From positions 1 through 64,000 of the forward strand of contig PBNW01000033.1 in NCBI GenBank assembly GCA_002723255.1: 64,000 nucleotides of DNA, given 5' to 3'. This DNA is from Pelagibacterium sp. (lineage in GTDB: Bacteria > Pseudomonadota > Alphaproteobacteria > Rhizobiales > Devosiaceae). This document shows, piece after piece, positions 28,872-38,179 of the stretch; the stretch's first letter is position 1; the number at the start of each line of letters is the position of its first letter. The notes beneath the pieces were generated by a model. That model saw only the letters and a program-made list of their open reading frames with translations, searched no databases and was not told the DNA's origin. The translations under genes and the position numbers were made by a program.

Positions 28872-28885
28872 CCAAAACGTTTTGG
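28872..28885. promoter_or_regulatory. AglR-type operator between aglA and aglR
   Basis: CCAAAACGTTTTGG is a perfect 14-bp palindrome with the central CG typical of LacI-family sites. It lies in the divergent aglA/aglR gap, and the identical sequence occurs upstream of aglE. Confidence 0.85.
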
Positions 28886-32463: not shown

Positions 32464-33771
32464 TCAGAGATTGTTCCAGGCAGCTTCGATCTCGGAAGCC
32501 ACCTCTTCAGCCGAGTCGCCTCCGACGAAATCGACCATGCCGGTCCAGAATGCACCGGCGCCGATGGCACCTGGCATCAGGTCCGAACCGTCGAACCGGA
32601 AGGTATCGGCGGCGAGCAGGATCTCACCTTGAGCGCGCAGGGTATCGTCGGCATAGGCTGCCAGATCGACACCGGTGTGCGGTGTCAGGAAGCCGGCGGT
32701 CGCCATCCAGATTTCGTGCGCTTCGGGATCCTTGAGGAAGTCCATGAAGGCGCGTGCACCCGGGGTGTCGTTGGTGATGGCAGCGAGCGTGCCGGCACCG
32801 AGGACCGGGTTGCCAAGATCTTTTTCGGCATAGCCGGGGAAGTAGAAGAAGTCGGCGTCCACACCGAGTTCGGTGCCTTCAGGGAAGAAGGCCGAGATGA
32901 AGGAAGCCTGGCGGTGCATGTAGCACTGGGGCGGAACCTGGAAGAGACCGGCAGGGCTATCGCGGAAGTCGGTCGTGCCAACTGCCTGAGCACCACCAGC
33001 AGCCCAGCCGTCGGACTTGACGAACGTGCCGAAAGTATCGATCGCCTCGACCACACGCGGGTCGTCGAACGCAATTTCGTGGGCAACCCACTGGTCATAG
33101 ACGCTGGGCTCCTGGGTGCGGAGCATCAGATCTTCCACCCAGTCAGTGGCCGGCCAGCCGGTTGCTGCGTCCGATCCGATGCCAATGCACCAGGGCGTGC
33201 CGCCATCGGCCACGATCTGCTCGGAAAGTGCAAGCAGGTCTTCCATGGTCTCGGGCACTTCATAACCGGCATCGGCGAAGTTGTCGGGGACGTACCAGAC
33301 CAGCGATTTCAGGTTCACGTTGTAGAAGAAGCCGTAAAGCTCTTCCTCACCGTTTTCGTTGGCGTAGGTGCCCAGATCGACCCAAGACTCGCCGGCAGCA
33401 TAATTGTCGCGAATCCAGTCACCCGAACCTTCGGGGAGCGGCGTCAGGAAACCCTGGGACGCCATGGTGGCGGCGAGGCCGGGCTGCGGGAAGAAAGTGA
33501 CCTCCGGCGCGGAACCGGCCTGGGCGTCAATCACGATCTGCTGTTCAAGGCTGTCGGAGCCGACATATTCAGCGTTCGCACCCGTGCGTTCGTTGAAGGC
33601 ATCGACAACGGCCTCGAAGGACTCGATTTCAACACCACCGACCCAGGGGCCGAAAATGGTAAATTCTTCGCTGTTCAAATCAGGCAGGTCGACGGCCTGC
33701 GCGGCGGCAGGAGCCGCAAGGGCAAGGGAAAGCGCCAGAGCTGAAGCTCCAGCCAATAGGGTTTTGTGCAT
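32464..33771 (-). CDS. aglE: Alpha-glucoside-binding periplasmic protein
   Basis: A 435-residue type 1 sugar-binding protein with signal peptide MHKTLLAGASALALSLALAA, cleaved after AAA. The mature part shows the family pattern FTIFGPWVGGVEIESFEAVV, and a lobe-two string MHRQASFISAFFPEGTE lies near residue 285. The ATG at 33771 has GGAGGA nearby; the longer frame upstream contains the operators and is not coding. First gene of aglE-aglF-aglG. Confidence 0.92.
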   Translation of the reverse strand: MHKTLLAGASALALSLALAAPAAAQAVDLPDLNSEEFTIFGPWVGGVEIESFEAVVDAFNERTGANAEYVGSDSLEQQIVIDAQAGSAPEVTFFPQPGLAATMASQGFLTPLPEGSGDWIRDNYAAGESWVDLGTYANENGEEELYGFFYNVNLKSLVWYVPDNFADAGYEVPETMEDLLALSEQIVADGGTPWCIGIGSDAATGWPATDWVEDLMLRTQEPSVYDQWVAHEIAFDDPRVVEAIDTFGTFVKSDGWAAGGAQAVGTTDFRDSPAGLFQVPPQCYMHRQASFISAFFPEGTELGVDADFFYFPGYAEKDLGNPVLGAGTLAAITNDTPGARAFMDFLKDPEAHEIWMATAGFLTPHTGVDLAAYADDTLRAQGEILLAADTFRFDGSDLMPGAIGAGAFWTGMVDFVGGDSAEEVASEIEAAWNNL

Positions 33772-33832
33772 GTAGTCCTCCCATGGCACATGGAGACGTA
33801 TATTATGGCGTCTGTCTGCCGAATACGACATT

Positions 33833-33846
33833 CCAAAACGTTTTGG
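33833..33846. promoter_or_regulatory. AglR-type operator upstream of aglE, site 1
   Basis: CCAAAACGTTTTGG, identical to the site between aglA and aglR, 62 bp upstream of the aglE start. Confidence 0.85.
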
Positions 33847-33849
33847 CAA

Positions 33850-33863
33850 CCAAAACGTTTTTG
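33850..33863. promoter_or_regulatory. AglR-type operator upstream of aglE, site 2
   Basis: CCAAAACGTTTTTG matches the palindrome at 13 of 14 positions. Its centre is 17 bp from site 1, consistent with paired repressor dimers. Confidence 0.75.
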
Positions 33864-33984
33864 CCGCCCCTTTTAGCATTATGGGCTTTGTCGTGCGGCC
33901 CTTGGAGCGTTGCACAAAGCTTAAGGTTTGCCAAGCCGGTAACGCGGTGTTGCAGGGCGTTTGGCTGCCCCCATGCACCGGACC

Positions 33985-34377
33985 CTATCGGCCTTGCGAC
34001 CCTGCCGATCCGGCATCGTAGCTGGCCCGCGCCGCGTCGATGGTAGAAACGTTTTCCGCCGCCCAATTGCTCAGTACGGTGACCGGTGCCTGCAGCGAGC
34101 GTCCCAGATCGGTCAGTTCATATTCGACACGAGGGGGAAGCGTGGCAATGACGGTGCGGCGCACGAGGCCGTCGCGCTCGAGGCCGCGCAGGGTGCGGGT
34201 CAGCATGCGCTGGGAAATATCGTCAATGGAGCGCAGCAATTGCCCGAACCGCAGAGATCCCTCCCCCAACCGCGTCACGATCAACAGACTCCATTTGTCG
34301 CCGATACGCCCGAGAACCTGACTGACCTTGAGGCACGTTTCAGTGGGATGGGTTTCTTGCATCGTCGTTACAGTCAT
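33985..34377 (-). CDS. HxlR-family transcriptional regulator
   Basis: A 130-residue winged-helix protein. The HxlR pattern is clear: a conserved Cys in HPTETCLKVSQVLGRIGDKW, then SLRFGQLLRSIDDISQRMLT and RTLRGLERDGLVRR. In related regulators such as YodB and HypR the N-terminal Cys senses electrophiles or disulfide stress. The ATG at 34377 is preferred; a 23-residue longer frame runs into the promoter region. It is divergent from the two-flavin fusion gene 91 bp away, which it probably controls. Confidence 0.9.
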   Translation of the reverse strand: MTVTTMQETHPTETCLKVSQVLGRIGDKWSLLIVTRLGEGSLRFGQLLRSIDDISQRMLTRTLRGLERDGLVRRTVIATLPPRVEYELTDLGRSLQAPVTVLSNWAAENVSTIDAARASYDAGSAGSQGR

Positions 34378-34468
34378 GTGCCTTACCTTACAGAAAAGTG
34401 CCGTCTTGCGGGCAGTTCGACTTACTCTCATATACGACAGGAACAAAAAGTAACAAGAGGAACCGGCA

Positions 34469-36745
34469 ATGCCTGACTATGGCCACGAGCTAATGTTCGG
34501 GACATTTACGACACCATCCGCCAAGGATCCCCAGCACGCCGTTGCGATTGCCCAAGTGGCCGAAGCGGCGGGGCTGGATGCCGTGACGATCCAGGACCAC
34601 CCCTATAATTCGGACTTTCTGGACACCTACACGCTGCTGACCTGGATCGCGGCCAAGACCAGCCGCATCAGGGTAGCCGCCAATGTCACCAATCTTCCGC
34701 TTCGCCCGCCAGTGGTGCTGGCCAAGGCGGCCGCAAGCATCGACCTGCTTTCGGGCGGGCGGTTTGAGATGGGGCTGGGGGCCGGCGGGTTTGGCGATGC
34801 GATCAAGGCGGCAGGCGGGCGGGATCTGACCGCCGGCCAGCGCGTCGATGCGCTCGAAGAGGCAATCGGGATCATGCGGTCGATCTGGGATACCAGCCGG
34901 GCCGGGCTCAAGCATGAGGGCGAGCACTATCAGATCAATGGTCTGCGGCGCGGACCGCGTCCCGCGCACGCGATCGGGATCTGGCTTGGCGCCTACAAGC
35001 CCCGCATGCTTCGGATTACCGGAGCCAAGGCCGATGGATGGCTGCCAAGCTGGGATTATCTCAAGTCGCCCACGATGGTTGAATCGAACGCGATGATCGA
35101 CGAGGCGGCGCGTGCAGCCGGACGGCAGCCTTCCGATATCAAACGGCTGCTCAACTTCGGACGTCCGGCCATTCAGTCGGCCAATGGCGGGTTCTTGCAG
35201 GGACCGGTACGCCAGTGGGTCGAGCAATTGTCCGAGCTGATCCTCGAACACGGGTTCAGCGGGTTCTTTTTCGGGGGCGACGACCCGGACCTGCTGCGGG
35301 CGATTGGCGAAGAGATCGCGCCGGAGGTCCGGAGCGTTGTGAGCAGGGCGCGGGCCGGTTCAGGTGTTGTGGCGCCGCGTCCGAGTGCGGTGCTATCCAA
35401 GCGGATGGAGGGGATCGATTATGACGGCTTGCCCCCTGCCCTTGCGGACCGCGCCATCGAACCGGGCGATTTTCGCTATGAGGGCGTGCGGCATTCCTAC
35501 ATCTGGTCGGGGCGGCCGGGGCTGGTGATCAAGCCGGAAACGGCCGAAGAGGTTTCGGCGGCGGTGCTTTATGCGCGCAAGCAAGACGTGCCGCTTTCGG
35601 TGCGCAGCGGCGGGCATGGGATCAGCGGGCGTTCGACAAACAGAGGCGGGATTATCATCGATCTTGGGTCGATGAACGCCATTGAGGTGCTCGATGCGCA
35701 AAGCGGGCTGGTGCGGCTGGGCGCCGGTGCGCGCTGGAGTGAGGTTGCGGCAAAGCTCGGCGAGCATGGGCTGGCAATGAGTTCGGGCGATTATGGCGGC
35801 GTCGGGGTTGGCGGGCTCGCAACGGCGGGCGGGCTGGGTTATCTGGCGCGCAAGTTCGGGCTGACCATCGATCATGTGGCGGCCGCGGAGATTGTTTTGG
35901 CCGATGGGCGGATCGTGCGGGCGGACAAGGACAATGAGCCCGATTTATTGTGGGCCATTCGTGGCGCCGGCGGCAATTTCGGCATCGTTACGTCATTCGA
36001 GCTTGAAGCCTATCCCCTGGGCAATGTGATCCAGGCCGTTCAGGTATTCGATGGCAGCGATATGGCGGGCGTTCTCGAGCGCTGGGGCGCGCTGGTCGAG
36101 GCATCGCCGCGCGAGTTGACCAGCTTTCTCATGGCGGTGCCCGGACGGGCCGACCAGGGGCCGCTGGCCCAGGCGATCAGCGTTTATGCAGGCGAGGATG
36201 CCGATGCGGCGGCCGAGGCGATCAATGCTTTGGGCGAAGCCGGGCCGATTGTCGATCAGCGCGCTTATCTGACACCTTATGCCGGCGTTGTGGCCCATCC
36301 GGGCGGTGAGCATCGCGGGGGGAGCGCTGTGATCCGGTCGGGGCTGGTTGACCACATCACGCCCGAAGTCGCGGCGCGGGCGAACGGGCTGCTGGCCTCG
36401 GGGGCGGCCAATCTGTTGCAGATCAGATCGGTGGGCGGAGCCGTCAACGATGTTGCGGCTGACGCCATGGCCTATCCGCACCGGACGCAGAATTTTTCGC
36501 TGACTGCCGCCGGCAGTCGCGGGCGGGCGGAACTGCTCGATGGGCAATGGGGCGACCTTCGGCCACTGCTCAAGGGCATGTATCTCAATTTCGAGACCGA
36601 CACACATCCAGACAGGCTGGTCGAGGCGTTTCCCGAGCCCACATTGTCACGATTGCGGGCGCTGAAACGGCGCTATGACCCTGACAATGTGTTCAATCTG
36701 AACTTTGCAATTGAACCCCAGGAGAGCATTCGCGCCGCCTCATGA
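34469..36745 (+). CDS. LLM-class oxidoreductase fused to BBE-type FAD oxidase
   Basis: A 758-residue fusion of two flavoenzymes. Residues 1-295 have a luciferase-like fold (GTFTTPSAKDPQHAVAIAQ; SGGRFEMGLGAGGF near 94). Residues about 330-755 form an FAD-linked oxidase of the berberine-bridge / 6-hydroxy-D-nicotine oxidase type: the SVRSGGHGISGR motif has His383, a candidate for covalent FAD, and the C-terminal BBE text is YDPDNVFNLN. The second covalent position, Cys in bicovalent enzymes, is Tyr442. Each domain looks complete. A monooxygenase-oxidase couple is inferred, with unknown substrate. Divergent from an HxlR regulator and 3 bp from a convergent GH1 gene. Confidence 0.88.
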   Translation: MPDYGHELMFGTFTTPSAKDPQHAVAIAQVAEAAGLDAVTIQDHPYNSDFLDTYTLLTWIAAKTSRIRVAANVTNLPLRPPVVLAKAAASIDLLSGGRFEMGLGAGGFGDAIKAAGGRDLTAGQRVDALEEAIGIMRSIWDTSRAGLKHEGEHYQINGLRRGPRPAHAIGIWLGAYKPRMLRITGAKADGWLPSWDYLKSPTMVESNAMIDEAARAAGRQPSDIKRLLNFGRPAIQSANGGFLQGPVRQWVEQLSELILEHGFSGFFFGGDDPDLLRAIGEEIAPEVRSVVSRARAGSGVVAPRPSAVLSKRMEGIDYDGLPPALADRAIEPGDFRYEGVRHSYIWSGRPGLVIKPETAEEVSAAVLYARKQDVPLSVRSGGHGISGRSTNRGGIIIDLGSMNAIEVLDAQSGLVRLGAGARWSEVAAKLGEHGLAMSSGDYGGVGVGGLATAGGLGYLARKFGLTIDHVAAAEIVLADGRIVRADKDNEPDLLWAIRGAGGNFGIVTSFELEAYPLGNVIQAVQVFDGSDMAGVLERWGALVEASPRELTSFLMAVPGRADQGPLAQAISVYAGEDADAAAEAINALGEAGPIVDQRAYLTPYAGVVAHPGGEHRGGSAVIRSGLVDHITPEVAARANGLLASGAANLLQIRSVGGAVNDVAADAMAYPHRTQNFSLTAAGSRGRAELLDGQWGDLRPLLKGMYLNFETDTHPDRLVEAFPEPTLSRLRALKRRYDPDNVFNLNFAIEPQESIRAAS

Positions 36746-36748
36746 GGG

Positions 36749-38080
36749 TCAGGCGACGCGGGAGCGGTTGGCTCCCGTGAGAAGAGACTGGAAGGCACGG
36801 TAGGACGATTTGGGCGTGCGTTTCTGAGTCTTGTAGTCGACGTGAACCAGCCCGAAGCGCTTGTCATAACCTTCGGCCCATTCGTAATTGTCGAGCAGGG
36901 ACCAGCCGAAATAGCCCCGCACGTCAGCGCCGCGTCTTTGCGCGGCGAGGACGGCGCCCAGATGGCCGTCGTAATAAGCGATGCGACGCGGATCGTCGGT
37001 GCCCTCGATCTCGGCCATGCCGTTTTCAGTCACATAAAGCGGGATGTCGGTATAATCGGCGGCGATGCGGGTGAGGATTTCCTCGAGGCCCTCGGGGAAG
37101 ATTTCCCAGCCGATGGCCGTCTTTTCGAGGGGGCCATCAACCTTGCGCAGCGGGAAGGCGCCGCGTTCGGGAGCGTGCTCGTAAAGGCCGCGGGTGTAGT
37201 AATTGACGCCGAACCAATCGAGAGGCGTTGAAACCACCGCCATATCGTCGGCGAAATCATCGGGCATGTGGGGCGCGAAATGAGCGAGGACGTCGGCGGG
37301 GTATTTGCCCTTGAACAATCCGTCGAGATACCAGCGGTTGAAGATGCCGTCCCAAAGGCGCGCGGCGCCCATATCCTCGGGCTTGCCGGTGGCGCCCTGG
37401 GCGACTTCGAAATTGCAAACGATACCGAGGTTCTTGCCGCCTTCGGCGCGCATGGCGTTGATGGCCATGCCGTGGGCCAAGAGCACATGATGAGAGGCAC
37501 GGGCCGCGGCGCGGATGTCGCGATAGCCCGGTGCGTGGGCGCCGAGCATGTGGGACAGGAAGGCGACGCACCATGGCTCGTTAATGGTGGCCGTTGTTTC
37601 GAGCCGGTCGCCGAAATTTTTCTGGATCAACACGGCGTATTCGGCGAACCAGTTGGCGATATCGCGATTGAGCCAGCCGCCCCTGTCCTGCAGGGCACTG
37701 GGCAGATCCCAATGGTAGAGCGTTGCGAAGGGTTTAAGGCCCCGCTCGAGCATGCCGTCAATGAGCCGGTCGTAAAAATCGATACCCTTTTGATTGACCG
37801 CGCCTATGCCCTCGGGGATCAGGCGGGGCCAGGCGAAGGAAAAGCGATAAGCGTCGAACCCGCCATTGGCCAGCAGGTCGAGGTCTTCGGGCCAGCGATT
37901 GTAATGATCGCAGGCGATCTTGCCGGTTTCGCTGTTGTGAACATTGCCGGGCGTGGCTGAAAACGTATCCCAGATGGAAGACCCGCGGCCATCGGTCTGG
38001 CCGCCCTCGATCTGATAGGCAGCCGTGGCCGCGCCAAACAGGAAATTCTCGCCGAAATCGGCGCGTTTATGGCTGAACAT
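36749..38080 (-). CDS. GH1 family beta-glucosidase
   Basis: A 443-residue cytoplasmic glycoside hydrolase cleaving beta-glucosides such as cellobiose. It begins MFSHKRADFGENFLFGAATA. The acid/base Glu is in ATINEPWCVA near residue 168, and the nucleophile Glu is in LYVTENGMAE near residue 350. There is no signal peptide. The start at 38080 has GGCGGAG upstream; a longer frame would include a likely operator palindrome at 38110. It is convergent with the flavin fusion gene. Confidence 0.92.
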   Translation of the reverse strand: MFSHKRADFGENFLFGAATAAYQIEGGQTDGRGSSIWDTFSATPGNVHNSETGKIACDHYNRWPEDLDLLANGGFDAYRFSFAWPRLIPEGIGAVNQKGIDFYDRLIDGMLERGLKPFATLYHWDLPSALQDRGGWLNRDIANWFAEYAVLIQKNFGDRLETTATINEPWCVAFLSHMLGAHAPGYRDIRAAARASHHVLLAHGMAINAMRAEGGKNLGIVCNFEVAQGATGKPEDMGAARLWDGIFNRWYLDGLFKGKYPADVLAHFAPHMPDDFADDMAVVSTPLDWFGVNYYTRGLYEHAPERGAFPLRKVDGPLEKTAIGWEIFPEGLEEILTRIAADYTDIPLYVTENGMAEIEGTDDPRRIAYYDGHLGAVLAAQRRGADVRGYFGWSLLDNYEWAEGYDKRFGLVHVDYKTQKRTPKSSYRAFQSLLTGANRSRVA

Positions 38081-38109
38081 TGTCGGCTCTCCGCCCAGAG
38101 TGCGATTTT

Positions 38110-38123
38110 TGTAATCGGTTACA
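38110..38123. promoter_or_regulatory. Putative LacI-type operator of the beta-glucosidase gene
   Basis: TGTAATCGGTTACA has 5-bp perfect arms around a CG-centred core, the usual architecture of LacI-family sites. It lies 29 bp upstream of the GH1 start. It differs from the AglR site. Confidence 0.55.
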
Positions 38124-38179
38124 TTATGGTTATCAGCGTTTTTCGCCCTTGTCATCATCGAGAACCGAGACAATCGATG

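Follow-up and report, generated by a model that had tools for sequence, protein, structure and literature searches.

A cysteine-free fusion of a luciferase-like domain and an FAD oxidase domain beside a divergent HxlR regulator gene in Pelagibacterium

The stretch of DNA analyzed here (the window; 64,000 nucleotides, positions 1 to 64,000 of contig PBNW01000033.1 in assembly GCA_002723255.1) comes from Pelagibacterium sp., an alphaproteobacterium of the family Devosiaceae. It carries a gene that joins a luciferase-like oxidoreductase (LLM) domain to a flavin adenine dinucleotide (FAD) oxidase domain of the berberine bridge enzyme (BBE) type. The gene is a single open reading frame (ORF) that is open throughout, and a divergent gene of the HxlR family lies across a short intergenic region from it. 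The features of the locus are collected in Table 1.

Table 1. Features of the fusion locus (positions are those of the window)
Feature	Position	Strand	Basis or remark
LLM-FAD oxidase fusion gene	34469..36745	+	758 amino acids, Cys-free; ORF, Pfam and EncM alignment
LLM half, about residues 1-296, with DHPY motif at residues 43-46	34469..35356	+	PF00296, conservation in 54 sequences, Foldseek
Linker, about residues 297-318, differing between species	35357..35422	+	Identity among genus members
VAO/BBE-type FAD oxidase half, about residues 319-758, with His383 and Gly440/Val445 oxygen gate	35423..36742	+	Pfam, EncM alignment, conservation
Divergent HxlR/DUF24 regulator, N-terminal Cys-Leu-Lys	33985..34377	-	Profile match and alignment
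Shared intergenic region, blocks conserved in six genus sequences	34378..34468	.	Candidate operator and promoters
Presumed beta-glucosidase ORF as listed, right border of the cassette	36749..38173	-	Neighbour comparison; not part of the function
Presumed ABC sugar-binding protein ORF as listed, start uncertain, left border	32464..33978	-	Neighbour comparison

A first-pass annotation of this DNA had described two flavoenzymes in one chain, and this description was borne out. Bac_luciferase (PF00296) matched residues 17–228 (E = 4e-48, 164.8 bits against a cut-off of 27.9), FAD_binding_4 (PF01565) matched residues 350–485 (E = 4e-32, 111.2 bits against 26.4), and BBE (PF08031) matched residues 705–748 (E = 1e-6, 29.0 bits against 20.6). 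An assembly frameshift at 35.35–35.45 kb, which the annotation had raised as a possibility, was not found: the junction is in frame in all seven genus copies compared, the window included. Six of these seven are free of stop codons, and the copy in genome G696 has a stop at codon 191, within the LLM half. Because five further genomes of the genus carry an unbroken fusion and the junction is in frame, an origin by artefact or frameshift was rejected, and the LLM-FAD fusion is confirmed as real. Ratios of nonsynonymous to synonymous substitution rates (dN/dS) among the genus copies were 0.07–0.19 for the LLM half and 0.04–0.24 for the FAD half (20 of 21 pairs gave a defined ratio), with the most distant pairs near synonymous saturation. 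Since these ratios are low in each half, both are kept in the genus by purifying selection. Residues 296–330 are 49–63% identical between more distant genus members. When the window gene was compared with another genus copy (L001 6001–8277), synonymous divergence was 0.52 for the LLM half as against 0.12 for the FAD half, a contrast that points to a recent recombination event with its breakpoint close to the linker. The predicted structure of the whole chain, made from the window protein and six related sequences only, had a mean predicted local distance difference test score of 55.6, mostly below 50 in the FAD half.

In the FAD half, residues 326–751 align with EncM from the PDB (E about 2e-53) and residues 323–752 with 6-hydroxy-D-nicotine oxidase. 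We examined an alignment of 54 sequences (49 from actinobacteria, including seven tandem ones, and five from the genus), in which His383, Gly440 and Val445 are each invariant. Position 442, which is Tyr in the window protein, is Tyr in 40, His in 8 and Phe in 5 of the 54 sequences. The annotation had named His383 as the one candidate for covalent flavin attachment, with Tyr442 in place of Cys, and it was right on both points. The second (Cys) flavin link of bicovalent BBE enzymes is excluded because residue 442 is Tyr and the window protein has no Cys. These residues predict an oxidase-type enzyme with a single (monocovalent) FAD link at His383. Gly and Val at the gate mark the open oxygen pocket of BBE-like oxidases (PMC4898691, section 11); with Gly440 and Val445 in these places, the FAD half is predicted to be an oxidase rather than a dehydrogenase, and hence to react with O2 and release H2O2. 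Val445 is the counterpart of EncM Thr139 by alignment, the position being taken from the letter pattern and the published numbering. In the accessible part of PMC7662398, the EncM T139V variant showed oxidase activity, and Val at this position thus points to a plain oxidase. An EncM-type N5-oxide oxygenase was also considered and is disfavoured, since Val445 stands where EncM has Thr139.

The LLM half has Mer and FGD1 among its nearest solved structures, both by sequence and by fold. A Foldseek search with the predicted model of this half ranked F420-type LLM enzymes first, and KvPepI was near by fold and, weakly, by sequence. Within the DHPY motif, Asp43 is found in 52 and His44 in 50 of the 54 aligned homologues; Mer has the same pair in the alignment, and we presume from related enzymes that it is catalytic. 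The best F420 subfamily match, TIGR03619, scored 127.7 bits against a cut-off of 166.9, and no TIGR F420 subfamily cut-off was reached among the 25 matches listed. We also searched for genes of F420 synthesis: cofD was absent from three of three and cofH from six of six genus genomes tested (the genome of the window, 84% complete, being in both sets), whereas cofD was present in three of three and cofH in one of one actinobacterial genomes tested. Because the tested F420 genes were not found in the genus, F420 is disfavoured as the cofactor in this host and flavin mononucleotide (FMN) is the likely one. Thr105, Asn134 and Val136 of RutA correspond to Asn72, Gly102 and Gly104 in the LLM half, as read from the letters and a constant offset in chain numbering. 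A RutA-type N5 monooxygenase is disfavoured because these oxygen-pocket residues are replaced.

These features bear on two ways in which the halves could work together. The annotation had suggested that the oxidase half could feed its monooxygenase partner with H2O2 or an oxidised substrate. Both halves do lie in one chain, and the gate residues predict H2O2 formation; however, LLM enzymes use reduced flavin with O2, or F420, and are not known to use H2O2. No sign of a peroxide channel was seen in a model too poor to place the sites. We found no support for peroxide feeding, against which ordinary LLM chemistry speaks, and consider it highly improbable, although the sequential-substrate part of the suggestion overlaps with the explanation that we favour below. 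A second possibility is that the LLM half reduces an imine, iminium or ketone formed by the FAD half, with net epimerisation or isomerisation. The nearness of the LLM half to F420-dependent reductases and dehydrogenases by sequence and fold and the absence of the RutA oxygenase residues speak for this scheme, which has precedents in the pairing of a BBE-like oxidase with an iminium reductase in kratom and in a fused epimerase of P450 and aldo-keto reductase (PMC12441186, accessible part). Nevertheless, there is no substrate hint, an O2-using oxidase joined to a reductase would need a continuous supply of reduced FMN, an epimerase would need no detoxification-type regulator, and the tested F420 genes are absent from the host genus. 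We therefore regard oxidation followed by reduction as rather unlikely.

The absence of Cys extends beyond the window protein, which has none in 758 residues. Among 48 plain fusions (42 actinobacterial and six from the genus), 47 are Cys-free and one has a single Cys. We counted Cys over distinct homologous stretches, with short or stop-bearing rows dropped and with identity limits that were set after the table had been seen. LLM stretches of the family (at least 36% identity) had 0 Cys in 22,378 residues (76 sequences), and FAD stretches (at least 42% identity) had 5 Cys in 30,287 residues (70 sequences), two of them in L039, a lone oxidase of Streptomyces. At lower identity, LLM stretches of 25–36% had 2 Cys in 979 residues (four sequences), and FAD stretches had 22 in 4,727 at 36–42% and 146 in 12,148 at 25–36%. 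For comparison, neighbouring actinobacterial genes had 463 Cys in 60,488 residues (0.77%), and 24 of 157 were Cys-free. LLM paralogues from three genomes had 49 Cys in 7,794 residues, with seven of 27 Cys-free (30 of 47 places fetched, three family members left out), and FAD_binding_4 paralogues had 84 in 9,515, with three of 23 Cys-free (27 of 27 fetched, four family members left out). The paralogues thus have ordinary Cys contents, whereas the fusion family almost excludes Cys; for a whole diverged family to be without it is unusual.

The divergent gene encodes a true HxlR protein by profile (E = 1.5e-28, 99 bits against a cut-off of 20.8). Its start is likely the ATG at 34377, because the start context is conserved in six genus sequences, and this makes the gene shorter than the listed TTG-started ORF. 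An N-terminal Cys is present in all 22 aligned HxlR proteins that neighbour a fusion or a split pair, in agreement with the annotation, which had stated that the neighbouring HxlR keeps the sensing Cys. The accessible part of PMC7835342 reports that the corresponding residue of HxlR-family proteins senses electrophiles or oxidants, the correspondence here being one of position in the N-terminal helix and not of alignment with the reported protein. The same part describes a formaldehyde-sensing HxlR of Bacillus that uses Cys11 and Lys13. In three genus genomes, Cys-Leu-Lys occurs in three of three fusion-linked HxlR proteins versus none of the 14 remaining HxlR proteins (one of these lacks a residue at the Lys place); the actinobacterial HxlR proteins in the alignment lack a Lys two residues after the Cys. 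The conserved Cys, the Cys-x-Lys pair and the Cys-free enzyme give some support to electrophile-induced expression, which the annotation had proposed and which stays plausible. The 42 plain actinobacterial fusions have a divergent MarR gene in 17 cases, an HxlR gene in 15 and neither, by the test used, in 10; L147, scored as regulator-free, does have an HxlR match, which lies in a long overlapping frame and escaped the test. In the MarR genes beside actinobacterial fusions (e.g., L102 7373–7906), one column holds Cys in 21 of 23 sequences, the alignment quality there being unchecked. The HxlR gene is split over two frames in two genus genomes (L001 5527–5969 and L124 5952–6394).

We then consider how widely the architecture occurs. 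In a sample of 297 genomes of the order, searched at E 1e-30, full-length matches were confined to the genome of the window and one genus member, and the remaining matches, among those listed, cover the FAD half. Among 398 genomes of the phylum, the genome of the window alone passes 1e-75. In the class of a Micromonospora genome (394 genomes), 108 have a match better than 1e-75 to one half or to both; in all these wide samples, only the best two or three candidates per genome were scored. The 56 places taken from the class sample, from which a place in G342 cut by a contig end was left out, comprise 42 plain fusions in one chain, 13 loci at which an LLM gene lies near a gene for an LLM'-FAD protein (tandem form), and one side-by-side pair (L156) in a genome already counted among the 42. 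At least 55 of the 394 genomes hold the fusion or the tandem form. The rarity implied by the annotation was thus not upheld: this architecture is common in the actinobacterial class that was sampled. The annotation had also named many characterised homologues with the same fusion as a finding that would speak against its reading; homologues are indeed many, but none was found characterised in the literature searched. In a plasmid collection, two of 661 matching records match 80% or more of the query at a single place, namely a Nonomuraea replicon (11.9 Mb) and a Streptomyces plasmid with overlapping LLM and FAD genes. A scan of viral contigs for further FAD relatives found none, and phage records gave partial matches only, in five records.

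A quick, midpoint-rooted tree of the fusions placed the six genus sequences in a 27-row clade that also contains actinobacterial fusions (Shimodaira–Hasegawa-like approximate likelihood ratio support 100). In an FAD tree with an outgroup, rebuilt without L013, L022 and L016 because a first version gave them long branches or their frames had been wrongly chosen, the genus sequences fall within the fused set with an unsure nearest neighbour (82/83). A single fused clade was not rejected (approximately unbiased test, p = 0.36), and the lone oxidase of a Streptomyces plasmid falls inside it. Because these trees place the clade of the window among actinobacterial fusions, horizontal transfer is likely, and the cassette of HxlR and fusion genes was probably derived from Actinomycetes.

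The actinobacterial loci also provide evidence on whether the two domains are coupled. At 13 class-sample loci and in Nonomuraea (L002), an LLM gene with the DHPY motif lies near the gene for the FAD protein on the same strand. The fused LLM domain of the 13 tandem loci is DHPY-less and shortened in 10 and keeps DHPY in three. At six of the 13, those with the most decayed stretches, BLAST detected no fused LLM domain, yet each of the six N-terminal stretches still matched an LLM profile, at 29–96 bits. An intact same-strand LLM gene lies near 10 of 10 DHPY-less fused LLM domains versus three of 45 DHPY-bearing ones (Fisher p = 1e-8, a guide only, as it ignores the relatedness of the sequences). 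A first count of intact and decayed domains by two motifs gave 37/2/6/11 (Fisher p = 5e-6) and failed six DHPY-keeping loci; the recount by DHPY alone used a criterion picked after that result and dropped L156, in which LLM and FAD are separate genes. In an LLM tree, the second LLM genes form two sets that are separate from most fused domains, so that the tandem form may have more than one origin. At L137 (2577–5267), the LLM domain groups with the second LLM genes and a 126-residue stretch precedes the FAD match; this protein may represent a renewed, independent second fusion. The two domains are also found as neighbouring genes. The overlapping LLM and FAD genes of the Streptomyces plasmid adjoin an HxlR gene, as do the separate side-by-side frames of L156 in Micromonospora. 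Of 15 further FAD-only places, L187 and L188 have LLM and FAD in separate side-by-side frames, L186 is a lone FAD oxidase of about 50% identity, and the other 12 are paralogues at 37–41%. Taken together, the coupling of LLM and FAD is supported, because the pair also neighbours as separate genes and the DHPY-less fused LLM domains have an intact LLM gene nearby. A Flavodoxin_2 gene (L038 8295–8945) directly follows the split pair on the Streptomyces plasmid; the Flavodoxin_2 family includes quinone reductases.

The decay at tandem loci raises the alternative that the LLM half is a mere scaffold in this genus, with the FAD oxidase as the working enzyme. A remnant does stay where fused LLM domains decay, and cofD and cofH were not found in the genus genomes tested. 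However, the DHPY motif of the window protein is intact, dN/dS of its LLM half is near 0.1 and as low as that of the FAD half, and loss of DHPY is seen only where another LLM gene is present. We consider a scaffold role improbable.

Within the genus, the fusion gene is present in seven of 13 genomes, including that of the window and one other of the same species, and in all seven the HxlR and fusion genes lie as a cassette between the genes that we take, from family likeness and not from a profile search, to encode a beta-glucosidase and an ABC sugar-binding protein. Five members without the cassette have the glucosidase followed by the binding protein with about 55–551 bases between the matches, and a sixth fusion-free member gave no glucosidase match at 1e-100. 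The constant position in 7/7 cassette-bearing genomes would suit an enzyme that oxidises phenolic aglycones freed by the adjoining beta-glucosidase and glucoside transporter operon. Against this stand the same border genes in the five members without the cassette, the cassette's own regulator, and the separate LacI-like operators of the transporter genes. Moreover, within 8 kb on either side of 20 actinobacterial fusions, only the regulator was common to more than seven loci (neighbours were grouped by similarity, antisense frames inside the fusion were set aside, and annotation covered a minority of the neighbours, 10 being scanned). We see little chance that aglycone processing is the role. 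Palindromic CCAAAACGTTTTGG-type sites lie at 28872–28885, 33833–33846 and 33850–33863 of the window (six matches counting both strands versus 0.1 expected by shuffling). They resemble LacI operators and may control the glucoside transport genes.

The best explanation overall, to which we give an even chance, is that the fusion protein is an inducible flavoenzyme with two active sites, which takes a single reactive small molecule through two linked redox reactions. The FAD half, with FAD covalently held on His383 only, would pass a hydride from the substrate to O2, giving H2O2, and the LLM half, of the F420-type branch, would use reduced FMN to act on the same compound, either ahead of the oxidase or following it. 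Having both sites on one chain would lessen the escape of a thiol-reactive intermediate, and the enzyme may be Cys-free because it works amid thiol-reactive compounds or peroxide. HxlR would sense the toxic compound via its N-terminal Cys and control the promoter region shared with the fusion gene. The most likely role of the fusion protein would be to detoxify or exploit a phenolic, N-heterocyclic or aldehyde-type compound from the environment. A bolder version, which we judge unlikely, holds that both halves were purged of Cys to survive their own thiol-reactive substrate or product, under a Cys sensor with a Cys-x-Lys pair as in the Bacillus formaldehyde sensor, and that the LLM half switched from F420 to FMN after transfer from Actinomycetes.

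Several observations weigh against an inducible two-site enzyme of this kind. FAD partners without an LLM domain exist at about 50% identity (L186 and L039), and the coupling is not absolute; L186, which lies outside the family-wide Cys count, is itself Cys-free, so that Cys loss is not strictly tied to the LLM domain. Single Cys-free proteins are not rare, as seen in the neighbouring genes (24/157), the LLM paralogues (7/27) and two permeases of the window, and the Fisher and Cys figures are weakened because the sequences are related and make fewer independent cases. Ten of the 42 actinobacterial fusions scored without HxlR or MarR. The system looks dispensable in one lineage, since HxlR is frameshifted in two genomes and the enzyme has a stop in one (G696). 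Finally, an LLM half of the F420-like branch fits poorly with a host without the tested F420 genes.

Both enzyme families are large and well known, and the fused form is frequent in the sampled class; nonetheless, we found no account of an LLM-FAD fusion in the literature, open-licence papers being those covered. The accessible parts of papers on kratom, quinoxaline, aflatoxin and pseudouridimycin do not describe it. The loci constitute a natural experiment on tying two catalysts together, by fusion, by neighbouring genes, or by a second LLM gene whose presence allows the fused copy to decay. The near-absence of Cys beside a Cys-based regulator gives a directly testable idea on the chemistry, and an F420-type enzyme in a genus without the tested F420 genes makes a change of cofactor testable as well.

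Among known systems, the FAD half belongs with the branch of EncM and 6-hydroxynicotine oxidase, to which it aligns nearly end to end, its candidate covalent His aligned with that of EncM; EncM, however, is a single-domain user of a flavin N5-oxide, whereas the FAD half of the window protein is fused to an LLM domain and Cys-free. The F420-type LLM enzymes Mer, FGD1 and KvPepI are among the nearest to the LLM half by fold, and Mer shares its Asp-His pair, but the LLM half falls below the F420 subfamily cut-offs among the matches listed, in a genus in which cofD and cofH were not found. RutA-type group C monooxygenases share the LLM fold and detectable sequence similarity, but their oxygen-pocket residues Thr105, Asn134 and Val136 are not kept. 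The LLM-hemerythrin proteins of Actinomycetes, which we observed in Streptomyces and Asanoa (L040 6001–7545 and L005 6001–7530), have a related LLM domain with hemerythrin instead of an FAD oxidase as the partner. Reticuline epimerase, a plant fusion of a P450 and an aldo-keto reductase, likewise shows a second redox domain naturally joined to an oxidase, both working on the same substrate (PMC12441186, accessible part); it differs in being a plant enzyme built from other protein families, and a reductive role of the LLM half in the window protein would be hypothetical.

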